In this document: piece after piece, positions 9,688 through 45,083 of the stretch
Numbering within the stretch: position 1 is the first letter of the stretch
Layout: each line of letters starts with the position of its first letter
Assembly (NCBI GenBank): GCA_012798695.1
Contig: JAAZMR010000021.1
Coordinates: 1 to 46,190 of the forward strand
Origin: Bacillota bacterium
GTDB lineage: Bacteria; Bacillota; Limnochordia; DTU087
Length of the DNA stretch: 46,190 bases
Reading direction: 5' to 3'
Translations under genes and position numbers: made by a program
The notes under the pieces: model-generated
Told to the model about the DNA's origin: nothing
Seen by the model: only the letters and a program-made list of their open reading frames with translations
The model's database searches: none

Positions 9688-10374
9688 CTACAGTCCTCGG
9701 ATAATGAGTTGCTCTGTATGGCCTTGAAAGATTTCTTTTGCCTTTTGGAACCAGGCTTTTGCATATGGTCTTACTCTCCCGAAGGCCGGGTCTAATGTCT
9801 GTCTAGGCCGAAACTGCTGCAGAGCGAAACGGCCCATTGGCCCTAGCAGCTTGGCGATCATCTCCAAATCCCCTAAGTCTACAAGGCCTGGGACCACCGT
9901 AGTACGCAGTTCATAGGCGGTCCCACTATTTCTCACGAGTCCCACGCTCTTTGCCACTGTGGCAAACTCCAACCGGCCTCCCGTAGCCTGCCGATACCGG
10001 TGTGGTGAGGATTTGATATCAATAGCCACATAATCCAACAATCCCTCACTCAGAAGACTTAGCAAGACTTCAGGTCTAGAGCCATTGGTATCCAGCTTCA
10101 CACTATATCCTAAGGCCCGAACTTGCCTAATGAACTCATCTAAATCAGATTGGATAGTCGGCTCACCACCACTTATACAGATGGCATCCAGCTGATCTCG
10201 CCTTTGCCGTAAGAACTTCAGTACTGCCTCCTCAGTGTCCCCTTCCTTCCCGATTACCAACTCACCATTATGGCAAAAGGGGCAGCGCAGATTGCAGCCC
10301 CTCGTGAAAACAGTGATCGCAGGTTTGTGAGGATAGTCCACCAAACTTAAGGGAATATACCCACCGATCCTCAT
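9688..10374 (-). CDS. nrdG: Anaerobic ribonucleoside-triphosphate reductase activating protein (radical SAM)
   Basis: This 228-residue radical SAM enzyme uses S-adenosylmethionine and a [4Fe-4S] cluster to place the glycyl radical on NrdD. The CxxxCxxC cluster motif is at Cys27, Cys31 and Cys34 (TRGCNLRCPFCHN), with SGGEPT about 45 residues later as the SAM-binding GGE motif. Length and sequence fit the NrdG2 branch common in Firmicutes and archaea. Its ATG overlaps the nrdD stop by four bases (ATGA), so the two are translationally coupled and co-transcribed behind the cobalamin riboswitch. Confidence 0.95.
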   Translation of the reverse strand: MRIGGYIPLSLVDYPHKPAITVFTRGCNLRCPFCHNGELVIGKEGDTEEAVLKFLRQRRDQLDAICISGGEPTIQSDLDEFIRQVRALGYSVKLDTNGSRPEVLLSLLSEGLLDYVAIDIKSSPHRYRQATGGRLEFATVAKSVGLVRNSGTAYELRTTVVPGLVDLGDLEMIAKLLGPMGRFALQQFRPRQTLDPAFGRVRPYAKAWFQKAKEIFQGHTEQLIIRGL

Positions 10375-12455
10375 TGAGCTAGCTCAGCAGGAACAAATGT
10401 ACGCCGATCCTGAAACTCACTTTGTTTGCCTAAGTTCCAGTTTTTCACCGGTCGATAAAAACCAACGACACGGCTCCAAACCTCTGTCGCCTCACTGCAG
10501 ATGGGGCACAATGCCTGCTCTCCCCGCAAATACCCGTGGCTGGGACATATACTAAAGGTGGGGGTAATGGTAAAATAGGGGATTCGATACTGGGAGAACA
10601 CCGTCTGCAGCAATATCTTGAGTGCTGCTAGATCGTCGATCTGCTCTCCCATAAAAGCATGGAATACCGTACCACCTGTATAGAGAATCTGAAGAGGTTC
10701 TTGCAGATCCAAAGCTTCAAATAGATCATCAGTATAACCCACCGGCAGCTGAGTGGAGTTTGTATAATACGGCGCTTCTGCCTCCCCCGCCGTAATCATC
10801 AGGGGGTAGGCCTTTTTATCCAGCTGTGCCAGGCGGTAAGATGTGCCTTCCGCTGGAGTTGCTTCCAGATTGAAGAGCTGGCCTGTTTCTGTCTGAAAAT
10901 CCACCAGCCGCTCTCTCATGTAGTTCAGCACTTCCTTAGAAAACGCTTGTCCTGCACGTGAGGCTAGACCACAATCCATGAAATTCAGCAAGGCCTCATT
11001 CATCCCCACCAGGCCAATCGTATTAAAGTGATTGTCCCAATACTTACCAAACCTCTGGTAAACATCATGGAGATAAAAACGAGAATAGGGGAAAAGACCT
11101 TTGATGATCAGAGCCTCCAGTACCCGCCTTTTCAGAAGCAGGCTTTCTTTAGCCAGTTCCATCAAAACACTTAGGCGTTGGAAGAACTCCTCCTTGGTCT
11201 TGCTCAAATATCCGATCCGGGGCAGATTGATGGTGACCACCCCGATAGAGCCAGTGAGGGGGTTAGCGCCGAATAATCCACCACCTCGCTTACGCAGCTC
11301 TCTAGCATCCAAACGAAGCCGGCAGCACATACTCCGCACATCGTCAGGTGAAAGATCGGAGTTAACGAAGTTGGCAAAATAGGGGATCCCATATTTCGCA
11401 GTCATGGCTAGAACCCGCTCAAATACAGGTGATTCCCAATCCAGATCATCAGTGATGTTATAGGTCGGAATCGGGAAACTAAAGGTTCGGCCCTTAGCAT
11501 CGCCTTCCATCATGACTTCGCAAAAGGCCATATTCAGCATATCCATTTCCTTTTGGTAATCACCATAGCAGGATTCCTGGTATTCACCGCCGATGATTAC
11601 AGGGCTGTTGGCTAAGGTCCCGGAGGGTGTAAGATCCATAGTAATATTGACAAAGGGGGTCTGAAAGCCAACCCTGGTAGGTACATTTAGGTTGAAGACA
11701 AACTCCTGGAGGGCCTGCCTAGTCTGGGCATAGTTGAGACCATCATGAGCGATAAAGGGCGCCAGATAGGTATCGAAATTGGCAAACGCCTGTGCACCTG
11801 CTGCTTCTCCCTGGAGTGTATAGAAGAAGTTGGCTACCTGGCCCAGGGCAGTGCGAAAATGTCTGGCTGGCGTGCTTTCTACTTTCTCACTTACTCCACC
11901 AAAACCCTTAAGCAAGAGATCTTCTAGGTTCCAGCCACAGCAATAGGGTGCCAGCAGTCCTAAATCATGAATGTGAAAATCCCCTTGGATATGGGCTTCT
12001 CTGATCTCCCTGGGGTAAACCTCCTCCAGCCAATACTTCGATGAAACTGCAGAGATGATGTGATTATTCAATCCTTGTAGGGAATAGTTCATATTGCTAT
12101 TTTCATTGACCCGCCAATCAGCTCGGCCCACGTATTCTCTGATCATCTGCTCAGCATCCACAAGGGTGCTTTTGAAGCTCCTCAATTTGCTTCTTTGCTC
12201 TCTGTAAAGGATATAGGCTTTGGCCATGGCGGCTTGCCCGTTTTCAATGAGGACCTGTTCTACAATATCCTGTACACCCTCTACCGTAGGTAATTCCTCT
12301 GGTGATAGCTTCGCCACCACCTGTACAGCGAGCCTTTCGGCCAGCTCCTTATCTGGATGGCCTACAGCGCGCCCTGCTTTATAGATAGCCGTAGCAATAC
12401 GCTCCCGTTCAAAAGACACGATTCTGCCATCTCTTTTTCTGATGTTGTCTATCAC
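10371..12455 (-). CDS. nrdD: Anaerobic (class III) ribonucleoside-triphosphate reductase
   Basis: NrdD reduces ribonucleoside triphosphates to deoxyribonucleotides without oxygen, using a glycyl radical and formate. An ATP-cone regulatory domain occupies the first 90 or so residues (IRKRDGRIVSFERERI). The C-terminus holds the zinc site (CPSHGYL and CPIC) and the glycyl radical loop RVVGFY with Gly near residue 665. The frame is open further upstream, to a GTG at 12545, but that stretch overlaps the riboswitch terminator. I therefore place the start at GTG 12455, which has AGGGGGA 5 bases upstream and gives a normal 694-residue protein beginning at the ATP-cone. nrdG follows with a 4-bp overlap. 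Confidence 0.95.
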   Translation of the reverse strand: MIDNIRKRDGRIVSFERERIATAIYKAGRAVGHPDKELAERLAVQVVAKLSPEELPTVEGVQDIVEQVLIENGQAAMAKAYILYREQRSKLRSFKSTLVDAEQMIREYVGRADWRVNENSNMNYSLQGLNNHIISAVSSKYWLEEVYPREIREAHIQGDFHIHDLGLLAPYCCGWNLEDLLLKGFGGVSEKVESTPARHFRTALGQVANFFYTLQGEAAGAQAFANFDTYLAPFIAHDGLNYAQTRQALQEFVFNLNVPTRVGFQTPFVNITMDLTPSGTLANSPVIIGGEYQESCYGDYQKEMDMLNMAFCEVMMEGDAKGRTFSFPIPTYNITDDLDWESPVFERVLAMTAKYGIPYFANFVNSDLSPDDVRSMCCRLRLDARELRKRGGGLFGANPLTGSIGVVTINLPRIGYLSKTKEEFFQRLSVLMELAKESLLLKRRVLEALIIKGLFPYSRFYLHDVYQRFGKYWDNHFNTIGLVGMNEALLNFMDCGLASRAGQAFSKEVLNYMRERLVDFQTETGQLFNLEATPAEGTSYRLAQLDKKAYPLMITAGEAEAPYYTNSTQLPVGYTDDLFEALDLQEPLQILYTGGTVFHAFMGEQIDDLAALKILLQTVFSQYRIPYFTITPTFSICPSHGYLRGEQALCPICSEATEVWSRVVGFYRPVKNWNLGKQSEFQDRRTFVPAELAQ

Positions 12456-12480
12456 ATTAATCCCCCTAGCCGCTACCGAA

Positions 12481-12510
12481 TAACAAAACCCCACCACCTG
12501 AGATGGGGTT
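12481..12510 (-). terminator. Intrinsic terminator forming the expression platform of the cobalamin riboswitch
   Basis: Read on the minus strand, AACCCCA (12510-12504) pairs with TGGGGTT (12493-12487), followed by TTTTGTTA. It stands between the riboswitch aptamer and the nrdD ribosome site, where a ligand-controlled terminator is expected. Confidence 0.75.
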
Positions 12511-12565
12511 AATCTAGCACTAAAAACACCCACCTCTCTTCCCACTGAAGACGGTGTTGCTGCTG

Positions 12566-12740
12566 CCAGACCCGGTCTCCGGACTTCCAGGTCTTCCTTG
12601 GCCGATGCCTTCTCAGGAATTGCCCAATGGCTGTTATCGGCTTTGTCGCTGGTTACCGTAGCAGGGGCTGTACCGGATTTGCACCGGTTTCCCTTACGAT
12701 CTAGCAGATGATGAGTTTCTCTTTGTTATATGTCCTGGGC
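12566..12740 (-). promoter_or_regulatory. Cobalamin (adenosylcobalamin) riboswitch upstream of nrdD
   Basis: The minus strand carries the conserved cobalamin aptamer elements in order: GGGAAACCGGTGCAAATCC, then ACAGCCCCTGCTACGGTAA, and the 3' element GAAGTCCGGAGACCGG. The outer stem can form between CCAGGAC near 12740 and GTCTGG near 12566. The aptamer is followed by an intrinsic terminator and then by nrdD. By analogy with other cobalamin riboswitches, ligand binding should switch the operon off. The boundaries are approximate. Confidence 0.88.
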
Positions 12741-20730: not shown

Positions 20731-21285
20731 CTATCGGGTCTGCGTTTCCAGAAAACGGTCCAAGTATTTCTCCCACCGCGCGTAGGTCTGCGGATAGTGT
20801 GCCTCAACATACTCAAGGAACTCACCATCCACCCCCCGGCGCATTAGACCTTTCAAAAGCTTACGGGGAAAGGATGGGCTCTTTCTCATGGTGTTGACAG
20901 GATCGATTAGCCACAGCTTACCCTTGGGATCAATAATGACGTGGGATAATCTGGTATCAGCTCGGCGAAACCCCAACCGGTGCATGGTTTCTACCATCTC
21001 CACCAATTGCCGAGCTATGTCCAATGTAAATGGGTTACCACGCAAATAGCGGTTTAGAGGAACACCGGGGGCATATTGACGGATGATATAGTCTCTGCCC
21101 CAGTCATATACACGGGGAAAGAAGGGAGCATCCTCCCCCCGCTGAAGGGCGGCTAACTCCAGCCGTAGGTAATGACGTTCCTTGTAGATCTTGATACAAC
21201 GCCGATCATCGATCTTGTAGACCTCTCCGTGCTTGCCTGCTCCGACAAACTCCAACTGCTCGATCTTGACCCCTTCCATCAGCAT
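20731..21285 (-). CDS. Small protein-kinase-like protein (YrzF/RIO-like)
   Basis: The 184-residue product has a compact kinase N-lobe with a glycine-rich loop GAGKHGEVYKI (residues about 16-26) and Lys in IKIYK. The catalytic loop is degenerate (RADTRLSHVIID in place of HRDLK..N), and the metal-binding motif is IDP in place of DFG. Short lipopolysaccharide-kinase/YrzF-type Ser/Thr kinases of Firmicutes have this look. It may phosphorylate a protein or small molecule; the target is unknown. ATG 21285 follows GGGGGAGA by 5 bases. It appears to be transcribed alone, with its own terminator. Confidence 0.72.
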   Translation of the reverse strand: MLMEGVKIEQLEFVGAGKHGEVYKIDDRRCIKIYKERHYLRLELAALQRGEDAPFFPRVYDWGRDYIIRQYAPGVPLNRYLRGNPFTLDIARQLVEMVETMHRLGFRRADTRLSHVIIDPKGKLWLIDPVNTMRKSPSFPRKLLKGLMRRGVDGEFLEYVEAHYPQTYARWEKYLDRFLETQTR

Positions 21286-21445: not shown

Positions 21446-22405
21446 CTATTTGCGCTCTCTTCTTTGCTGCTGCAGCGTATTGCGTTCCCAGAATACGCCA
21501 TTCACATAGCCTTGAATACTATCGTCTTCTTCTGCTAGCTTGAGTCGCTTTTCTGCCCAGGCACAGTAAAGTGGTTCGACCTCAATACCCACATATTTCC
21601 TGCCCAGCTTCTTCGCAACCACAGAAGTTGTACCAGAGCCCAGGAAGGGATCCAAAACTACATCACCAGGATGCGAACTAGCTAAGATCACTTTCGCTAA
21701 AAGCTTCTCGGGCTTTTGGGTAGGGTGATCCGTGTTCTCAGGCATGGACCAAAAGGGAACTGTCAAGTCTGTCCAAAGATTGGAAGGATAGGTCAGCCTA
21801 AACCTCTTATTCTTCACCTGCTGCCAGTCCTTAGGTTTGCCTCTTTCCCTATAAGGCGCAAGCACCTGACGCTTGAGCTTGACCGCATCAGCATGGAAGG
21901 TATAATCATCCGAGACTGTGCCGAACCAAATATCCTCAGAACAGTTTTTCCAATTTGACTTTGACCCCCTGCCCTTCTCTCGTTCCCAGGTGATCCGATT
22001 GCGTACTACTAGATACCTGTCGATCACGCAGTGGATAGCTGCTGATGAACGCCAGTCTCCACAAATATATACAGAAGCTGTTGGTTTGAGGACCCTGAGA
22101 ATCCTTCGAAACCATGATTCGAACCAATCTTGGTATTCCTCAAGAGAGCGTTCCTTGAAGCTATGGCTCTGAAAGGATTTGGTGAGATTATATGGAGGGT
22201 CAATAAATAATAGATCGACAAATGATTCAGGCAACCAGTCTATTGTTGCAAAGAAGCATTGATTGACCGTAGTGTTTTCGAGTTCTGCAAAGGTCACCGG
22301 ACCATCTAGCCTCAAGCAACGCTGACTGTACAGCGTGAACTCATCTTCTAATAGTGTCAACGTCCGGTTTCTTGGTGCTCTGCCTTTTCCCCTTGACACT
22401 GTCAT
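21446..22405 (-). CDS. Solitary DNA methyltransferase, beta-class (N4-cytosine or N6-adenine)
   Basis: Catalytic motif IV DPPYNL is at residues 69-74 and the S-adenosylmethionine motif FLGSGTT at 254-260. Motif IV before motif I defines a beta-class amino-methyltransferase. HPTQKPEKLL just before motif I is also conserved, and the region between (about 140-230) should contain the target recognition domain. The motif DPPY is shared by m6A and m4C enzymes, so the modified base is not decided. No restriction endonuclease gene is nearby, so it may have a regulatory or housekeeping role, or protect against an enzyme encoded elsewhere. ATG follows GAGGAGG by 8 bases. Confidence 0.9.
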   Translation of the reverse strand: MTVSRGKGRAPRNRTLTLLEDEFTLYSQRCLRLDGPVTFAELENTTVNQCFFATIDWLPESFVDLLFIDPPYNLTKSFQSHSFKERSLEEYQDWFESWFRRILRVLKPTASVYICGDWRSSAAIHCVIDRYLVVRNRITWEREKGRGSKSNWKNCSEDIWFGTVSDDYTFHADAVKLKRQVLAPYRERGKPKDWQQVKNKRFRLTYPSNLWTDLTVPFWSMPENTDHPTQKPEKLLAKVILASSHPGDVVLDPFLGSGTTSVVAKKLGRKYVGIEVEPLYCAWAEKRLKLAEEDDSIQGYVNGVFWERNTLQQQRRERK

Positions 22406-22493: not shown

Positions 22494-22522
22494 GTCAAAA
22501 GGGTGCCTTGTCGGCACCCTTT
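22494..22522 (-). terminator. Terminator of the beta-barrel protein gene
   Basis: AAAGGGTGCC (22498-22507) and GGCACCCTTT (22513-22522) form a perfect 10-bp stem with a 5-base loop. On the minus strand the stem ends in CCCTTTT. It is 34 bp past the stop at 22556. Confidence 0.85.
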
Positions 22523-22555: not shown

Positions 22556-23212
22556 TTAGAAGTTCATGCTGACTCCAACGAAGAAACCGGAGAATGTAGC
22601 ACTTACTTCATCGTCTTTGAAATCGAAGCCCTGATTTCTATACCCGGCCTTCACACCAAACTGGCCGAAATCATACTTGCCACCTGCTTCGAATGCCACC
22701 ATACTGACATCCTTCAACTCTTTAGACTCACGCTTGGCGGTAACCTTGGGAGCATAGGTAACTTCACCAAAAACTCCGATGCCATCACTGACCTCGGCGT
22801 CTACCGCCGCACCGAGGGTAATACCGGACAAGTTGATATCTGCAGAATGAGTGTATTTACCGCTAAAGAACCCGCCCCGGGCCTTGATCATTGGCACGAT
22901 CTGATACTGTGCAGCAACATTGACACTACTCAGTTCAGCGTGGGCCTTTGGAGCGACTTCTTTGAAATCCTCACTCTTACCGAACACGAAGGAGCCCGCC
23001 ACACCGATCTTATCCGTAATGCTGATTTCGCCTTTCAGTCCGGTCAATCTCGCTGTGGCTTCGATCTTGTCCGAAGATTCCTCGGACTTCACTTCCCAGA
23101 CATGATTCGTAAACCACTGATCTACCGATACTTCTCCCGTTTGAGCCAAGGCCAAGGAGCCGAAGCCCAGTACCATACAAAGCACCAACATGCCTGTCAA
23201 CAGCTTCTTCAA
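22556..23212 (-). CDS. Outer-membrane beta-barrel-like protein
   Basis: The protein has 218 residues, with a clear type I signal peptide ending at LALAQ (about residue 24). The rest is made of alternating polar/hydrophobic beta strands separated by short charged turns, roughly eight strands in the second part (for example SSVNVAAQYQI, GVFGEVTYAPK, FGVKAGYRNQ). The last residues are FFVGVSMNF: a terminal aromatic strand ending in Phe, the mark recognised by the Bam machinery of outer-membrane proteins. I do not recognise a specific family; a small OmpA/OprF-like barrel or porin-like protein is likely. The start is TTG 23212 with AGGAGGGG 7 bases upstream. A TATAAT box lies upstream, and a strong terminator follows, so expression is probably high. 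Confidence 0.78.
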   Translation of the reverse strand: MKKLLTGMLVLCMVLGFGSLALAQTGEVSVDQWFTNHVWEVKSEESSDKIEATARLTGLKGEISITDKIGVAGSFVFGKSEDFKEVAPKAHAELSSVNVAAQYQIVPMIKARGGFFSGKYTHSADINLSGITLGAAVDAEVSDGIGVFGEVTYAPKVTAKRESKELKDVSMVAFEAGGKYDFGQFGVKAGYRNQGFDFKDDEVSATFSGFFVGVSMNF

Positions 23213-23259
23213 ATCTTTCCCCTCCTAGATTTAGATTCCCCACAATGGCAAACTTAGCT

Positions 23260-23287
23260 ATTATACGTTTCGACGAGTTCCAAGTAA
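23260..23287 (-). promoter_or_regulatory. Sigma-A type promoter of the beta-barrel gene
   Basis: A perfect TATAAT (23265-23260) is preceded by TTACTT (23287-23282) at 16 bases. The -35 is weak. The start codon is about 48 bp downstream. Confidence 0.5.
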
Positions 23288-23338: not shown

Positions 23339-24145
23339 TCATAAAGTGCTGAGCACCTGTCTTAACGCTGCCAGAGCAGTACGAAACCGTTCTGCACCCG
23401 CAGCTTCCGGCATATACGGTCCCAGATGAGGCTCTACCGAGAGGAATCCCTGCCATTTATTGTTAGCTAGATCGGTCAGGATATTCTCCAGCTCACCATC
23501 ACCTTCACCTACTGGTACAAACTGCTGGAGGCTGTAGACAGCGTCCTTGACGTGAAAATATACCAAATAGTCTTTCACCAGCTGGTAATCGGCATAGCCT
23601 CTATTCGCTCCCAGCATCACTGCATTACCTGGGTCAAAACATGCCCGAAATTGGTCCGAGTCAACCGCCTGCAAAATATCTAGACATCGCTCCCCGATAT
23701 CACCATAAAGGCCCCGATCGTTTTCGTGAACAAAGACTAAATCTGTGCCTGCCAGAAGTTCAGTAAGCCTACCGAGTCTGTCAATGACCTCTGCGCGGTA
23801 GGTCGCCGGTGCCTCACCCTCTGGTATGAAGAAAGAAAACATACGAATATACCTGGCATCCAGAGTATGGGCAATATCAATGACCCGTTTGGCTTTTTCC
23901 ACACATGGCGCAAAATCCTCATTAATAGGAGATTTGCCTATGGGAGAGCCGATAGCCGATACCCCAATGCCGTAGTCATCCAACATCTTCTTTACCTCAC
24001 GCACCTGATCGTTGGATAGATCGCCGACATTGGTCTGGTCTACGGAACGAAACTCCAGATACTTGACGCCCTCTTCCTGCAGCACTAGTAATTGCTCCAA
24101 TAAGCTAGGGGAGATTTCGTCAGCAAAACCGGTTAGTTCAAACAT
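23339..24145 (-). CDS. Sugar phosphate isomerase/epimerase family protein (xylose isomerase-like TIM barrel)
   Basis: The product is a TIM barrel of the AP-endonuclease-2/IolE/UxaE type, which interconverts keto-sugars or epimerises sugar derivatives with a divalent metal. Likely metal ligands are the Glu of VHEND, the Asp of FDPGNA, the His of FHVKDA and the Glu of SVEPHLG. The frame is open to GTG 24163, but that codon lies inside the Shine-Dalgarno GGAGGAGG. ATG 24145, 8 bases after it, fits best and gives 268 residues. It is the last gene of the sugar operon, 32 bp after the Gfo/Idh/MocA dehydrogenase, with which such isomerases often work on inositol-like or amino-sugar intermediates. 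The exact substrate is unknown. Confidence 0.85.
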   Translation of the reverse strand: MFELTGFADEISPSLLEQLLVLQEEGVKYLEFRSVDQTNVGDLSNDQVREVKKMLDDYGIGVSAIGSPIGKSPINEDFAPCVEKAKRVIDIAHTLDARYIRMFSFFIPEGEAPATYRAEVIDRLGRLTELLAGTDLVFVHENDRGLYGDIGERCLDILQAVDSDQFRACFDPGNAVMLGANRGYADYQLVKDYLVYFHVKDAVYSLQQFVPVGEGDGELENILTDLANNKWQGFLSVEPHLGPYMPEAAGAERFRTALAALRQVLSTL

Positions 24146-24177
24146 ACGCATATCCTCCTCCACCCGTAGATCAGAGC

Positions 24178-25206
24178 CTATCCCAGCACGACCTTTTTGC
24201 CGGTACGAGCCGATTCATATATGGCTAGAATGATCTCAACAGCCCTACGTGCCTGCACTCCGTCTACCGCCGGTTTACCACCATTTTGTATCACATCTAA
24301 GACATGCGCAATTTCCGCTGCATGTCCCTCCAAGGCCAGGGCACCCGGATCCGATGTGGCTAGAGTCGCATCCTGTGTATCTAGCAGTTCTTCTTCACCT
24401 TCGATACTCCATCTAGTGATCTTATCTTCTTCTAAAATGATCGTACCTTTGGTGCCATGGATCTCCAATCGACCTGGATTGGCAGGAGTAACAGAAGTCG
24501 TACCTTCTATGACCCCCAAAGCACCATTCTTGAATTTGAGGGTGGCGGTAGCGACGTCCTCCACCTCGATATCTTTGTGAGCAAGTGTAGCTACATTAGC
24601 AGAAAGGCTTTCTACAGGACCCATGATCCACTGTAAGAGGTCAATGAAGTGAACTGACTGGTTCATTAGAGAACCACCGCCATCCAAAGCCCAAGTGCCG
24701 CGCCAATCGCCGCTATCATAATAGGCCTGAGACCTATACCATTTCACATAGGCATCACCCAAAACTAACTTACCTAGACGCCCTTCTTCTACTGCCTGCT
24801 TAATCTTGATTGATGCACTGTTAAACCGGTAGTTGAAAATGCCAGCCAAGATCCGGCCGGTTTCCTCTGCTGTTTTGATCATAGCATCGATCTTGTCCAA
24901 GGTAATGTCCATTGGCTTTTCCACAATTACATGCTTACCAGCCCGCATAGCTGCTATGGCCATATCACCATGCATACCGCTGGGTGTACAAATATTGATA
25001 CACTCAATATCGTCCCGGGCGATCAGCTCATCAAGAGATGTAAGCCATTCCACTGAAAGCTCCTCGCCTAACTTTTGTGCCCTTTCGGGGACAATATCGC
25101 AGACAGCGATCAGCTCTGCACTGGGTAGACTCTTAAGAATACGCGCATGCTTAGGACCTATAACACCACAACCTACTAAGCCACATCTAGTTTTGCTTGC
25201 CATCAT
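24178..25206 (-). CDS. Gfo/Idh/MocA-family oxidoreductase
   Basis: This is an NAD(P)-dependent sugar dehydrogenase. The N-terminal Rossmann fold begins GLVGCGVIGPKHARI (residues 9-23), and the family signature VEKPM stands near residue 95. The C-terminal half (about 130-342) is the substrate domain. Family members oxidise or reduce cyclic sugars, inositols and sugar acids. GGAGG precedes the ATG by 6 bases; a second ATG follows directly. It is part of the operon with the ABC importer upstream and the TIM-barrel isomerase downstream. Confidence 0.92.
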   Translation of the reverse strand: MMASKTRCGLVGCGVIGPKHARILKSLPSAELIAVCDIVPERAQKLGEELSVEWLTSLDELIARDDIECINICTPSGMHGDMAIAAMRAGKHVIVEKPMDITLDKIDAMIKTAEETGRILAGIFNYRFNSASIKIKQAVEEGRLGKLVLGDAYVKWYRSQAYYDSGDWRGTWALDGGGSLMNQSVHFIDLLQWIMGPVESLSANVATLAHKDIEVEDVATATLKFKNGALGVIEGTTSVTPANPGRLEIHGTKGTIILEEDKITRWSIEGEEELLDTQDATLATSDPGALALEGHAAEIAHVLDVIQNGGKPAVDGVQARRAVEIILAIYESARTGKKVVLG

Positions 25207-25243
25207 CTGGTTCCTCCATTCCTGTTCTGAATATGTCTGGATT

Positions 25244-26083
25244 CTAGCCCTTCATCCCTGTCATGACGATGCCTTCGATGAACTGTTTCTGGAAAGTGAA
25301 GAAGACAATGATGATCGGCAATGTTGCTAACGTTGATGCCGCCATCATCAGACTCCACTCTCCGGTATAGGTCTCCTGGAAGAGCCTAAGACCAATGGAA
25401 ATGGTCATGATATCTACATCGTTTACGTAGATCAGAGGCCCCATGAAATTGTTCCAATGTGCAATAAAAGAGAAGATCGCTATAGTAGCCAAAGCTGGCT
25501 TAACTACAGGCAAGAGTATCTGCCAGAATACCCTAAAAAACGAGCATCCATCCATCTTGGCTGCTTCTTCTAGTTCCACAGGAATGGTCATGAAAAACTG
25601 ACGAAGTAGGAAGACATAGAAGGCGTTCCCAAAGAAAGCAGGTACCCATAGGGGTTTAAGAGTATTGATCCACCCCAGTTTATTGAAAATCATATATACC
25701 GGGATCATGGTAACCTGAGAGGGAAGCATGATCGTCCCCAACAAGGCTCCGAACAGGAGCTCTTTACCCTTCCACTCCAAACGGGCAAAGGCATAGGCAG
25801 CCATGGAAGATGATAAGAGATTCCCGATAACTCCCAGAACGGTAACATAGGCTGTATTCCCCATGAACCGGAAAAATGGCAGATATGAAACCATCCGAGA
25901 GTAATTGTCCCACTTAATCGGGCGCGGGATCAGGGTTGGTGGAAAGAGAAATATCTGATCATCCGGCTTCAATGACGTTGAAATCAACCATACCACAGGG
26001 AAAAGCGCGATGAGACTAAAGCAAATTAAAAACGCATGATGAAGGATATTCCCAATCTGCTGGGAGCGTCGCTGACTTTTCAT
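25244..26083 (-). CDS. Carbohydrate ABC transporter permease (MalG family)
   Basis: The inner-membrane permease has six hydrophobic segments and the cytoplasmic EAA loop EEAAKMDG.......I.LP near residue 190, which docks on the ATPase. The frame is open to 26221, but that extension overlaps the preceding permease out of frame. ATG 26083 lies one base after the stop of the upstream permease with GGGAGGAGG 8 bases before it, giving 279 residues. It forms the membrane channel with the MalF-type partner and receives sugar from the binding protein encoded upstream. Confidence 0.93.
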   Translation of the reverse strand: MKSQRRSQQIGNILHHAFLICFSLIALFPVVWLISTSLKPDDQIFLFPPTLIPRPIKWDNYSRMVSYLPFFRFMGNTAYVTVLGVIGNLLSSSMAAYAFARLEWKGKELLFGALLGTIMLPSQVTMIPVYMIFNKLGWINTLKPLWVPAFFGNAFYVFLLRQFFMTIPVELEEAAKMDGCSFFRVFWQILLPVVKPALATIAIFSFIAHWNNFMGPLIYVNDVDIMTISIGLRLFQETYTGEWSLMMAASTLATLPIIIVFFTFQKQFIEGIVMTGMKG

Positions 26084-26084
26084 C

Positions 26085-26984
26085 TTAGGCGCCTCCTCCC
26101 ATTTCATAGTGTACCCAGTACTTTGATGATTTGAACTGCAAATAGGTAAATGCTGCGATGATAATAAACAAGAACCATGCCAAAGCTGAAGCATAGCCCA
26201 TTCTGAAGAAGGCAAATGCATTGTTGAACAAGTGGAGCATGTAGAAATAAGTTGATTCTACCGGTCCACCGCCAGTCATGATAAAGGCCTGTGTAAAGGT
26301 CTGCAAGGTTGAAATCAGCCCCATGACTGCAGTATAGAAAATGCTTGGTGTCAAAAGAGGTAACGTAATGTGTCGGAACATTGCCCACCCACTGGCTCCA
26401 TCAACCTTAGCCGCATCATAAAACTCGTTTGGTATATTTTTCAGACCGGCTAAATAGATGATCATGTTAGGTCCCGTAGCCCAGAGACTCATCAAGATCA
26501 GGGCCGGTTTAGACCAGGCCGGATCGCCTAACCACATCGGCCCATCTATCCCGATAAGGGAGAGGGCACTGTTGAGTAATCCGAACTGTGGCTGCAAAAT
26601 CCATAACCATAGAATCGAGTTAGCTACTGTCGGCACAATAGACGGAAAGTAAAAGAACGTCCTATAGAATCTTACACCACGAATGTCCTTATTGAGAGCC
26701 AGAGCTAGCAATAAGCTGACTATGATCGACAATGGTACCCCAAGTACCATATAGAAAGTGTTGCCAAGGGATTTCCAAACGGTTGGATCCCCAAAAAACA
26801 TGGTCTTGTAATTCTCCAGGCCGATAAATCTCAAAGCTCTCAGCCCATCGTAATCAGTGAAACTCAGAACTATAGAAGCTATAATCGGGCCAAGAGTCAG
26901 GCACAAGAAACCAATCAGCCAGGGTAGGATGAAAACATAGGCTGCTCTCTGCTCCGCTCTTTTCATCGGGCTTAATCTCGCCAC
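26085..26984 (-). CDS. Carbohydrate ABC transporter permease (MalF/UgpA family)
   Basis: This is the 299-residue permease partner with six transmembrane segments. The EAA loop is YDAAKVDGASGWAMF followed by I.LPLL. The start is GTG 26984 with GGGGGGAG 6 bases upstream. It lies between the solute-binding protein gene and the MalG-type permease in the order usual for CUT1 sugar importers. The 10-bp hairpin at 27008-27031 just upstream probably lowers its expression relative to the binding protein. Confidence 0.93.
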   Translation of the reverse strand: MARLSPMKRAEQRAAYVFILPWLIGFLCLTLGPIIASIVLSFTDYDGLRALRFIGLENYKTMFFGDPTVWKSLGNTFYMVLGVPLSIIVSLLLALALNKDIRGVRFYRTFFYFPSIVPTVANSILWLWILQPQFGLLNSALSLIGIDGPMWLGDPAWSKPALILMSLWATGPNMIIYLAGLKNIPNEFYDAAKVDGASGWAMFRHITLPLLTPSIFYTAVMGLISTLQTFTQAFIMTGGGPVESTYFYMLHLFNNAFAFFRMGYASALAWFLFIIIAAFTYLQFKSSKYWVHYEMGGGA

Positions 26985-27007
26985 AGGAAACTCCCCCCTT
27001 GGTTTAT

Positions 27008-27031
27008 GCCCCCGGGGAAAACCCCGGGGGC
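27008..27031 (-). terminator. Intercistronic hairpin between binding-protein and permease genes
   Basis: GCCCCCGGGG (27008-27017) pairs perfectly with 27022-27031 around AAAA. No T-run follows, so it is more likely a partial terminator or mRNA-stabilising hairpin that raises binding-protein over permease levels, as in other sugar operons. Confidence 0.7.
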
Positions 27032-27044
27032 GTTACGCAAGTGA

Positions 27045-28454
27045 CTACTGATCTGCTAGAAGCTTGTCTAAGGCCCGCTGTGCATTTTTCACAGCTAGGT
27101 CTAGGGCTTCTTGTGCTGTCATGGCATGGAAAATAGCGTTGTCAGTTGCCTTAAACTGCTCGGAATAGAGCTCAGCGGCAGCTAAAGTAATCGGACGATA
27201 CCTACTATACGCCATCATCGACTGAGCATAGTCCCAAGCTTCTCTTAGGTTGTCATTGGCTAGTAAGGGGAGGTACTGCTCTCTTCTCATCTCGTCAGCT
27301 GGCTTCAAACCGGTCATAGTCGGTACATAGGGAACATTAATCGACTTATTGTATTCATAATCTCCCTTGGCTTCAGCTGCAAAGCCATCGACACCGGTAA
27401 ACCATTTGACTACTTCCCAAGCTGCTTCGGCATTCTTGGCTCCCTTAGGAATTACCCAAGACCACCCACCTGACCAACTGATGAACTGCGGTTGGCCCTC
27501 AAACCGGCCTCGCTGTTCATATCTTTCTCTCGGCACAGGGATCGGCCCTACGCCGAAGTCGAGATCCGGGTTGTATCTTGCGATATCAGAAATGAACCAG
27601 TTGCCCTGAGCAAGCATTCCTACCTTGCCGGTCATGAAAGGATCCATTTGACCGGTCTGGAAGGAGGATGAAAACGCGGCTATCTTCTTAGCACCACCGA
27701 GTTCATCATAGAGCATGGTCAGATACTCTAGTGCTTCGGTCCACTCTGGGGTGTTCATGGTGATGGTTCTGCCATCTTCACTCAAGAGTTCTCCACCGTT
27801 TTGCCAACCCCAAAGATATAATCGACTATTGCCATACATGGGTATAAACCCTATGCTCTCATAGTTGCCGCGCTTGTCATACTTGGTCAGCTTCAAAGCA
27901 TAGTCTTTTAGCTCATCCCATGTATAGGGCTGGGTCTCCGGGTCAAAACCAGCATTGCGGAAGATATCCTTGTTCCAATAGAGAATGCGTACATCTGTGC
28001 CAAAGGGCATGGCATAGTAACTGCCATTGTACGTCGCTTCATTGATACATGCGGGGAAATACTGACTGAAGTCCAGATTGTCCTTTGCGATGAAATCATC
28101 TAGCGGAGTTAACACACCTCGTGCTGCATATCCAGCCACAACGAAGCGATCCATATAGTAAATATCAGGTGGATTGCCTGCTGCGACAGCTGTCATCAGT
28201 TTTTGCATGGTCTCTGGAGTAACTCCAATGCTGGCAGAAGTCCCAGCTCCACCGATGACTTGAGCTTGAGTCTTGATTTGAATATCTGAATGTGTACGGT
28301 TAAATTCCTCCACCATTTCTCTGCCGCCACCAGGAACGGCGTCATTAAGGCCCCACACTACTACCGTCGTCTTCTTCGCTTGGACTACACCAGTTCCCAA
28401 TACGAGAGCTACGAGCAACCAAAGAACCATAGACCGATACAGCTTACTCTTCAT
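27045..28454 (-). CDS. Extracellular sugar-binding protein of an ABC importer
   Basis: The 469-residue product has a type I signal peptide (about residues 8-26, ending VVQA). It then has the bacterial family-1 solute-binding fold starting KTTVVVWG and carrying AAWEVVKWFTG near the hinge, as in maltose- and multiple-sugar-binding proteins. No cysteine follows the signal peptide, so it is not a lipoprotein. That is unusual for a Gram-positive-type cell, where such proteins must be anchored, but normal for a cell with a periplasm. AAGGAG stands 9 bases before the ATG. It is preceded by the regulator gene and followed by two permeases. The sugar is unknown. Confidence 0.93.
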   Translation of the reverse strand: MKSKLYRSMVLWLLVALVLGTGVVQAKKTTVVVWGLNDAVPGGGREMVEEFNRTHSDIQIKTQAQVIGGAGTSASIGVTPETMQKLMTAVAAGNPPDIYYMDRFVVAGYAARGVLTPLDDFIAKDNLDFSQYFPACINEATYNGSYYAMPFGTDVRILYWNKDIFRNAGFDPETQPYTWDELKDYALKLTKYDKRGNYESIGFIPMYGNSRLYLWGWQNGGELLSEDGRTITMNTPEWTEALEYLTMLYDELGGAKKIAAFSSSFQTGQMDPFMTGKVGMLAQGNWFISDIARYNPDLDFGVGPIPVPRERYEQRGRFEGQPQFISWSGGWSWVIPKGAKNAEAAWEVVKWFTGVDGFAAEAKGDYEYNKSINVPYVPTMTGLKPADEMRREQYLPLLANDNLREAWDYAQSMMAYSRYRPITLAAAELYSEQFKATDNAIFHAMTAQEALDLAVKNAQRALDKLLADQ

Positions 28455-28526
28455 CGATTCTTGCTCCTTTCTGTCCCTTGACGGTATAGACCTAGGTTAA
28501 CCTCTGCGTGATTCGGTCGACATCTC

Positions 28527-29663
28527 TTAGACGGCTCGCACCACCCCCCCAGACATATCCATCCCATTGTTCACCGTTGTATGACTTACTACCAGTTTAG
28601 GCGCAAGCCGCAGTTGTCTCCCTTGAGGGCGTTCGTGCTCAATCTGCTCAAATAAGAAGTCAATTGCGGCCGCTCCGATCTGCCTGAGTTGTTGCTTAAC
28701 TGTGACGAGTTTGAGCCCTTCTACAAAACAGGAATCCAACTCATCAAAACCGGCCAAGGTGAAGTTGGCAGGTAGACTCAGCGATTTGCTTGCTATGTAT
28801 CTTAAGATCGCTACTGTGGTATTGGAGTTGATCGAAAAGACCGCAGTAGGCGGGTTGGGATTCTCAAATAGCTCGTCCAGGATATGGTGAATACTTTCTG
28901 CTAAGGCCGTCCTGGTTGCATACCCGATCAACTGCTGATCTATCGGAAGCTCATATGTATTGAGTGCCGCCATATAGCCCTGCATTTTCTCGGTGACAGT
29001 AGTACTATCACTGCCAGCCCTGGTGATATGTGCTATGCGGCGATGGCCATTCTGAATCAGCATTTCTATGGCATCATAAGTGCCTTGAAAGTTTTCTGTA
29101 CCAACATAGTCAGTAACTAACCCAGGAACATATCTATCCACAAGCACAAAGGGAACATCCATAGTGAGCAAACCTTCGATGAGATTCTTGCTAAAGTCTG
29201 AACCCAAATGCCAGACAACCATGCCTTCTACATTGTTGTCCATCAATTGCTCCAGCTGGCGCCTCTCCTCATCGGGATCCTCATCCGCATAGGCCAGTAT
29301 TAGCTGATAGCCCCTCTTCTGCAGCCCCTCGAGGAATCCCCGGATGAGCTGGAAACAGAAGTAGTCTCTGGGGCCGGCTGGCAATAGTGCGCCAATCAGC
29401 TTGCTGCCAACGATCCTGGTCCGCTCTCGGTAACTAGTGACAAAGGTACCATGACGAGGCCGCCTATAGAGTAGGCCCTCACCGACCAAATCGTCAATGG
29501 CCCTCTTAACCGTAATTGTGCTGACAGACAAAAGCTCAACCAGTTCCTTCTCGGTTGGCAGCTGTTCGCCTGGCTTATATCGGCCAGTTACGATCTCGTA
29601 CTTGATCGCCTCTCTAATCTGTGCATATAGAGGTTTGTCACTAGTAGGATCAATGGTAATCAT
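28527..29663 (-). CDS. GntR/LacI-type transcriptional regulator (AraR-like)
   Basis: Residues about 8-78 form a GntR winged helix (PLYAQIREAIKYEI, then LPTEKELVELLSVS, TVKRAIDDL and RPRHGTFV). Residues about 90-365 form a LacI-type periplasmic-binding effector domain (IGALLP, VDRYVPG, GFDELD). This fusion is the architecture of AraR, the arabinose repressor of Bacillus. It is the first gene of the sugar-importer operon, which it most likely represses until the inducer sugar binds. The inducer may be arabinose or another pentose, but sequence alone does not decide. A good promoter lies 30 bp upstream. Confidence 0.9.
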   Translation of the reverse strand: MITIDPTSDKPLYAQIREAIKYEIVTGRYKPGEQLPTEKELVELLSVSTITVKRAIDDLVGEGLLYRRPRHGTFVTSYRERTRIVGSKLIGALLPAGPRDYFCFQLIRGFLEGLQKRGYQLILAYADEDPDEERRQLEQLMDNNVEGMVVWHLGSDFSKNLIEGLLTMDVPFVLVDRYVPGLVTDYVGTENFQGTYDAIEMLIQNGHRRIAHITRAGSDSTTVTEKMQGYMAALNTYELPIDQQLIGYATRTALAESIHHILDELFENPNPPTAVFSINSNTTVAILRYIASKSLSLPANFTLAGFDELDSCFVEGLKLVTVKQQLRQIGAAAIDFLFEQIEHERPQGRQLRLAPKLVVSHTTVNNGMDMSGGVVRAV

Positions 29664-29908: not shown

Positions 29909-30337
29909 CTATCCCTTCGCTGGAGCTACTACACCAATGGTGAGGAGTATATTGGCAAACACTCTCTGCTCTCCTGTGGCAATAACCAAGGCAGTATCCT
30001 GGCCTCGCGCCGCTGCATAGAACTCAAACCGACCTAGTCCCTGCAGCGGAACCTGCTTACCTAGAACGTCCCGAAACTCCGCGAAAATGGGCGGTTCTGG
30101 ACCGTCCGGAGGAACCATCACATGGGCAGCTTCTACTGGAATAGCGGTAAGCACTACCTTCAACACATCCGTAGCCAGGGGTATCCCTGGGGTTAGGTTC
30201 AAGTACACTCTATGGGCAGCGGGATTAGCCCCCGTAGAGAATGGGTAGTTCCCATCGGCAATCAATACCCGAGAGCCATGGCCTGCTTGAGCGAGGCTCT
30301 GTAATATCTCAGGGTGAGTTAAAGCACTGCGTAACAC
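29909..30337 (-). CDS. RbsD/FucU family sugar mutarotase
   Basis: The product is 142 residues long. RbsD and FucU convert between ring forms of ribose or fucose (pyranase/mutarotase) before phosphorylation. The conserved AGHGSRVLIADGNYP (residues about 18-32), with the catalytic His20, and the C-terminal E.R.FAN.LL segment are present. The sequence looks closer to FucU, but the sugar is not certain. The start is GTG 30337 with GAAGGGAG 8 bases upstream. It is the last gene of a minus-strand run after the MOFRL kinase. Confidence 0.85.
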   Translation of the reverse strand: MLRSALTHPEILQSLAQAGHGSRVLIADGNYPFSTGANPAAHRVYLNLTPGIPLATDVLKVVLTAIPVEAAHVMVPPDGPEPPIFAEFRDVLGKQVPLQGLGRFEFYAAARGQDTALVIATGEQRVFANILLTIGVVAPAKG

Positions 30338-42029: not shown

Positions 42030-42105
42030 TGGCGCCCCCGGCAGGAATCGAACCTGCGACTAACAGTTTAGGAAACTGCTGCTCTATCCCCTGAGCTACG
42101 GGGGC
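42030..42105 (-). tRNA. tRNA-Arg (anticodon CCT)
   Basis: A full cloverleaf of 76 bases including an encoded CCA. The acceptor stem is GCCCCCG/CGGGGGC, the D arm is TAGCTCAGGGGATAGAGCA, the anticodon arm is GCAGT-TTCCTAA-ACTGT with CCT in the loop, and the T arm is GCAGG-TTCGAAT-CCTGC. It reads AGG codons. It has its own promoter and terminator. Confidence 0.97.
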
Positions 42106-42384: not shown

Positions 42385-42684
42385 ATGGGTACAGGCCAAA
42401 AATCAAATACACCTATCAATGTTAATGCAATGAAGGCACTTGACCAGCTTAAGTACGAAACCGCCAATGAGCTCGGCATTCAGGTCCCACCCAATGACTA
42501 CTGGGGCGATCTATCTTCGCGACAGTGCGGTGCGGTTGGCGGTAACATGGTCCGCAAGATGATTGCTGCGGCAGAACAGTCTCTCATCGAACAGACCGTT
42601 GCCGGGGTTCGCCAGGGCTTTGCGCAGGGGCTGTCTACCACAACAACTAGCCCAAGTGCAGTAAATATCCCTCCTGCCAACTAA
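42385..42684 (+). CDS. Alpha/beta-type small acid-soluble spore protein
   Basis: The product is 99 residues long. SASPs coat and protect DNA in dormant spores and are degraded by the GPR protease on germination. The conserved ALDQLKYETANELGI (about residues 18-32) contains the GPR site (between Glu and Thr in KYETA), and SRQCGAVGGNMVRKMI (about 45-60) is the second family block. It is longer than the usual 60-75 residues because of N- and C-terminal extensions (the latter rich in Thr, Ser and Pro). AGGAGGTGA precedes the ATG by 6-7 bases. This gene shows the organism forms endospores. Confidence 0.95.
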   Translation: MGTGQKSNTPINVNAMKALDQLKYETANELGIQVPPNDYWGDLSSRQCGAVGGNMVRKMIAAAEQSLIEQTVAGVRQGFAQGLSTTTTSPSAVNIPPAN

Positions 42685-44992: not shown

Positions 44993-45083
44993 TGGTGCCG
45001 GAGGCGGGACTCGAACCCGCACGACCTTAAGAGAGATCAACAGATTTTAAGTCTGTCGCGTATGCCTGTTTCGCCACTCCGGC
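44993..45083 (-). tRNA. tRNA-Leu (anticodon TAA)
   Basis: A class II tRNA with a long variable arm. The acceptor stem is GCCGGAG/CTCCGGC with discriminator A and encoded CCA, the anticodon arm is ACAGA-CTTAAAA-TCTGT with TAA, the variable arm is TGATCTCTCTTAAGGTCG, and the T arm is TGCGGG-TTCGAGT-CCCGC. It reads TTA (and TTG by wobble). Confidence 0.97.

Follow-up and report, generated by a model that had tools for sequence, protein, structure and literature searches.

The locus studied here poses the question of what protein is encoded by a reading frame that combines a signal peptide, alternating beta-strands and a terminal phenylalanine, in a stretch of DNA that also encodes a small acid-soluble spore protein (SASP). 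The sequence-only reading of the window (the whole 46,190-nucleotide stretch analysed, which belongs to a MAG with contamination estimated at about 5%) had combined these features into a lineage-specific outer-membrane barrel in a diderm, endospore-forming member of the Bacillota. According to the evidence presented below, the protein is probably a Sec-exported, BamA-assembled, monomeric ten-stranded outer-membrane barrel of a diderm, LPS-type, endospore-forming Limnochordia. The features of the window are listed in Table 1.

Table 1. Features of the barrel locus and of other parts of the window (positions are those of the window).
Feature	Position	Strand	Remarks
CDS, 218-aa predicted outer-membrane beta-barrel protein	22556..23212	-	TTG start at 23212; stop codon 22556-22558
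Sec signal peptide, residues 1-23	23144..23212	-	predicted cleavage between A23 and Q24; sequence MKKLLTGMLVLCMVLGFGSLALA followed by Q
Last strand and C-terminal beta-signal, residues 203-218	22559..22606	-	ends in GFFVGVSMNF; AlphaFold2 strand 203-217
Ribosome-binding site AGGAGGGG	23219..23226	-	from sequence; 6 nt before start
Intrinsic terminator hairpin AAAGGGTGCC-GACAA-GGCACCCTTT, then T	22498..22522	-	-23.8 kcal/mol; z=-7.35
Conserved promoter element AAAGGAATT-N11-GTCGAA	23269..23294	-	sigma-H-type -35; possible -10 overlapping Spo0A-box core
TATAAT, possible sigma-A -10	23260..23265	-	without matching -35
RbsD/FucU-like gene	29909..30337	-	immediately upstream of the barrel gene in most relatives
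LacI-type regulator/ABC-sugar/Gfo-Idh/TIM-barrel cassette	23339-29663		between RbsD/FucU-like and barrel genes in the window
DNA methyltransferase	21446-22405		between barrel and kinase-like genes in the window
Small kinase-like gene	20731..21285	-	weak matches only; beside the barrel gene, or close to it, on its 3' side in relatives
Alpha/beta-type SASP	42385..42684	+	PF00269, E=4.5e-26
tRNA-Arg(CCT)	42030-42105
tRNA-Leu(TAA)	44993-45083

The signals that delimit the reading frame agreed in most respects with those proposed for it. The signal peptide is of the Sec type, its cleavage site (A-L-A before Q) being readable in the protein sequence, and residues A21, A23 and Q24 were invariant in the alignment of ten homologues. 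The C-terminal residue was phenylalanine in all eight sequences whose 3' end lies on the contig, window included. The ribosome-binding site is good, with GGAGG or GGGAGG kept at its position in the upstream alignment of the homologues. The terminator hairpin is likewise good, and was missing from the list of the consensus scanner because its T-run is only 4 long.

The homologue search of the barrel protein covered 60 related genomes. Full or contig-cut homologues were present in 8 of the 10 genomes of the same family, with identities of 56-74% where the match was long (the contig of G001 holds only the first 26 residues), and a remote homologue of 33% identity was found in the same order (G011). 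Searching with the family profile added weaker relatives from other families of the class, to a total of 21 of 73 genomes, mostly through the C-terminal half. The gene was not found in the single-contig genomes of the class that were searched, at the thresholds used, and an independent scan of named genomes returned MAG matches only (seven named Bacillota bacterium and one Clostridiales bacterium DTU087). The dN/dS ratio was about 0.1 where it could be computed (dN 0.17-0.34), with synonymous sites near saturation; judged by its pattern of substitution, the reading frame is a real gene under purifying selection.

The AlphaFold2 model, built on a shallow alignment of 10 sequences, was a closed barrel of ten antiparallel strands following the signal peptide (mean pLDDT 86.3, pTM 0.79). 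The alternation of the beta-strands, which had been claimed from the letters, exceeded that of shuffled sequences: the lag-2 minus lag-1 hydropathy autocorrelation was 0.33 for the window protein (reached by 8 of 5000 shuffles) and 0.39 for the family profile (reached by none of 5000), and the hydropathy alternation of the strand cores was reached by 1 of 3000 shuffles. A cruder first version of the alternation test, run over the whole AlphaFold2 strands, was not significant. The strand cores carried 14 charged residues facing inward and none facing outward, a contrast that is partly built in because facing was assigned by hydropathy. On one rim, four turns had a constant length across all homologues, while on the other the loop length varied among homologues at 4 of 5 sites, the loops measuring 0-14 residues (21 in one remote homologue) and 1-11 residues in the model of the window protein. 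The constant turns are taken as the periplasmic side and the variable loops as the extracellular side, a pattern that is as expected. From the cleavable signal peptide, the closed and even-stranded barrel, the uncharged outside and the aromatic C-terminal beta-signal, together with a BamA gene in the genome, we infer an outer-membrane location. The protein would be exported by Sec and assembled into the outer membrane by BamA, as a ten-stranded monomer with tight turns on the presumed periplasmic rim and short, mostly variable loops opposite.

The best solved matches of the model were outer-membrane barrels, as anticipated by the sequence-only reading. OpcA of Neisseria meningitidis (PDB 2vdf, 1k24) is also a monomeric ten-stranded barrel, on which the model superposed with Z 21.5 and 1.9 A over 186 residues. 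Its identity to the window protein, from which the long ligand-binding loops of OpcA are missing, is 13%. The porin I of the Legionella Dot/Icm machine (PDB 9nh1) superposed with Z 20.9 and 2.3 A over 189 residues, again at 13% identity. The omptins (OmpT, Pla, pOmpT) likewise form a ten-stranded barrel (Z 17.8-20.2), compared with which the window protein is much shorter (about 195 mature residues), at 8-9% identity. Eight-stranded barrels ranked lower in the comparison to solved structures (Z about 9-12), and the sequence search against the same structures returned nothing relevant. With OpcA and the omptins as the best solved structural neighbours, the protein could be thought of as a surface enzyme or adhesin of one of these types. 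OpcA and the omptins both have long loops, whereas the loops on the variable rim are short here. The omptin profile was absent among the Pfam matches of the window protein up to E=10, and the family profile matched neither OpcA nor any other chain among PDB sequences up to E=1. Moreover, the columns of the homologue alignment showed no invariant His or Asp pair such as the omptin catalytic Asp-Asp and Asp-His, and we regard an enzyme or adhesin as quite improbable.

Weak profile likeness to three families, OMP_b-brl (PF13505), YfaZ (PF07437) and OMP_w_GlyGly (TIGR04219), was observed in 7-9 of the 10 homologues. The window protein reached 21.3 bits with OMP_b-brl (gathering score 28.7), for which homologues attain E=5.7e-9, 16.2 bits with YfaZ (cut-off 23) and 27.2 bits with OMP_w_GlyGly (curated cut-off 105). 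As no Pfam or NCBIfam model reached its own cut-off for the window protein, the remark that it matches no nameable porin family stands. OmpM of the diderm Firmicutes, in which an SLH domain at the N-terminus is combined with a large barrel of the porin type (PMC10628300), is another outer-membrane barrel in diderm Bacillota; unlike OmpM, the window protein has ten strands and yielded no SLH domain (PF00395) in the Pfam search. The proposal of a lineage-specific barrel was upheld by the homologue searches, and the results support the protein as a lineage-restricted, previously unnamed addition to the outer-membrane barrel proteins. A small barrel of restricted distribution and with a clear model would be a convenient outer-membrane marker for uncultured Limnochordia.

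The interior of the model was densely filled by charged and polar residues that are conserved (D31, K110, D138, E150, R192). Because of this filling, and because long loops are lacking and no conserved catalytic residues stand out in the alignment, we tentatively favour a small outer-membrane protein with a structural role or a very narrow pore over a general porin. The gene neighbourhood would point elsewhere, to a sugar channel, of the diffusion or the substrate type, that would serve the adjacent sugar-degradation genes: the neighbours include a GH38 alpha-mannosidase, a MOFRL-type glycerate kinase, RbsD/FucU and an ABC sugar transporter, and the order RbsD/FucU, barrel, kinase-like gene, common to most relatives, is kept in several of them. 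The kinase-like gene weakly resembles Kdo kinases (E 0.1 in Pfam and 1.9e-4 in NCBIfam, both under cut-off). However, the 14 inward charges within ten strands leave little space for a pore, the barrel gene is equipped with a promoter element and a terminator of its own, and one of the two copies in G003 (on C48) sits among other genes. A sugar channel is thus unlikely, and the structural or narrow-pore protein remains our preferred reading.

The genome of the window was searched for the machinery that such a barrel would use. BamA was located at G000:C99:18354-19208 and LpxC on the same contig at C99:710-1507, together with LpxD, LptC and LptA. Contig C99 also encodes an LptD orthologue, a 794-residue protein of which about 660 residues aligned (phmmer, 4e-77) with a protein of G018 scoring above the LptD cut-off; the Pfam LptD model (PF04453) misses the LptD of this genome, which is too divergent for it, and also that of most of the class. 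LpxB was found on C54. Spo0A, SpoIVA and SigH were also present, and two SigH-type proteins scored above the cut-off of 208 set for NF006148, an NCBIfam SigH equivalog model (406 and 258 bits). Their genes lie at G000:C124:73673-74257 and G000:C15:65672-66253. Because BamA, Lpx and Lpt genes occur in one genome with Spo0A, SpoIVA, SigH and the SASP, which was confirmed in the window itself, the organism is, by its gene content, a diderm, LPS-type, endospore-forming Limnochordia, as had been suggested. Neither outcome that would have refuted the sequence-only reading, a non-barrel model or a genome lacking BamA and LPS genes, was observed.

This conclusion about the lineage is not new, since diderm spore formers have already been published for the Limnochordia. 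Limnochorda pilosa has been described as Gram-negative and spore-forming (Watanabe 2016, as cited in PMC11456536), the outer-membrane gene cluster was present in all 46 Limnochordia genomes examined (Taib 2020, as cited in PMC11456536), and electron microscopy showed an outer membrane in two further isolates (PMC11456536). The lineage and the envelope type are the same as ours, and those two earlier works, as far as they are presented in the citing article, concern cell structure and marker genes. The lineage type is known; the barrel and its promoter element are the new parts. Whether the ancestral member of the phylum possessed an outer membrane, and how that membrane disappeared, is a question in which diderm Bacillota hold a central place, and the diderm-to-monoderm debate has so far been conducted mostly through structure and phylogeny. 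As a separate observation, none of the searched genomes from families f3 and f7 (e.g., G016, G020, G024, G027) yielded LpxC, although most of them have BamA and a diverged LpxB, and an LptD-like protein is present in G027; these families have possibly lost or replaced some of the lipid A pathway.

The barrel gene might alternatively derive from a diderm bacterium contaminating the MAG and not from the spore former. The contamination estimate leaves room for this, and contig C28 of the same bin is very probably misbinned. The first 127 bases of C28 (1-127) are identical to the last 127 of contig C103 of another MAG (G004, 10321-10447), and because this identity looks like an assembly-overlap length, it probably reflects a contig placed in the wrong bin and an assembly shared by the two MAGs. 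A candidate second gene (paralogue) of this organism at G000:C28:1-231 was rejected on that account. Nevertheless, the SASP lies on the same contig as the barrel gene, relatives within the family also carry the barrel gene along with the genes flanking it, and the window (49.8%) matches the contig bearing the outer-membrane cluster (50.1%) in G+C content. A contaminant origin is therefore hardly credible, and we continue to assign the barrel to the spore former.

The proposed strong -10 proved to be a secondary feature, as the TATAAT is present without a recognisable -35 and is absent in several homologues. The promoter scanner gave no support to a sigma-70 reading for the barrel gene. Alignment of the ten upstream regions revealed a different element, (A/G)(A/G)AGGRATT-N11-GTCGAA, located just upstream of the TATAAT and better kept than it. 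Its spacing was fixed in 9 of the 10 regions, L007 deviating with AGGATT, a longer gap and GTGGAA. Given that synonymous sites have reached saturation at these distances, the element is a strong footprint. The consensus of sigma-H comprises a -35 of RNAGGAWWW and a -10 of RNNGAATWW (PMC8510167). The window sequence AAAGGAATT agreed with the -35 at 9 of 9 positions; at the -10, GTCGAAACG fits RnnGAA only, with A in place of the next T, and the homologue L026 has GTCGAATTT at this position. The Spo0A-box core is TGTCGAA, with contacts at G2, C4 and G5 (PMC3485338). The window has CGTCGAA, which differs from this core by a C in place of the initial T, and TGTCGAA was found in L004, L005 and L008.

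The pattern AGGAWTT-N11/12-GNCGAA occurred 10 times in the genome of the window versus once for the reversed control, and 85 times versus at most 30 over eleven family genomes (rows summed by hand); in G008 it was not above the reversed control. Four genomes had the element in front of exbB and three had it in front of SLH proteins; in several it also preceded an ATPase-like gene (so named on inspection by eye). The other matches fell before metabolic genes or within genes, so that the pattern alone is not specific. The exbB operon runs on into ExbD and TonB in the genome of the window. At L109 (G000:C15:83000-93000), exbB-exbD-tonB sits a short way past sigF and a small gene resembling SASPs, with two AGGAWTT/AGGATAT...GTCGAA copies in front of exbB. 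Similar arrangements, each with a -35-like first half, were spotted by eye upstream of spo0A (GGAGGAACC-N12-GACGAATAT) and spoIIAA (GTATGAATT-N12-GGCGAATAT). With the promoter weight matrix, spo0A and spoIIGA scored no better than shuffles, and the scanned region before sigH contained no such element.

Based on these motifs, transcription of the barrel gene could plausibly, if far from certainly, be tied to the stationary-phase or sporulation switch through a sigma-H-type promoter or a Spo0A box. More speculatively, the genes for the barrel, exbB-exbD-tonB and an SLH envelope protein might be controlled together by sigma-H and/or Spo0A, and commitment to sporulation would then bring a remodelling of the outer membrane. 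Of the two SigH genes, one might serve the envelope specifically. Should the promoter reading hold, it would provide a testable route that couples sporulation to outer-membrane composition, which would be a new link.

Two further observations concern other parts of the window. A cobalamin riboswitch (12553-12718) lies upstream of an apparent anaerobic ribonucleotide reductase gene (10371-12545). A repeat-protein frame with near-identical repeats (2-1669) runs off the edge of the window and is located downstream of a gene for a von Willebrand-type protein (1679-2338).
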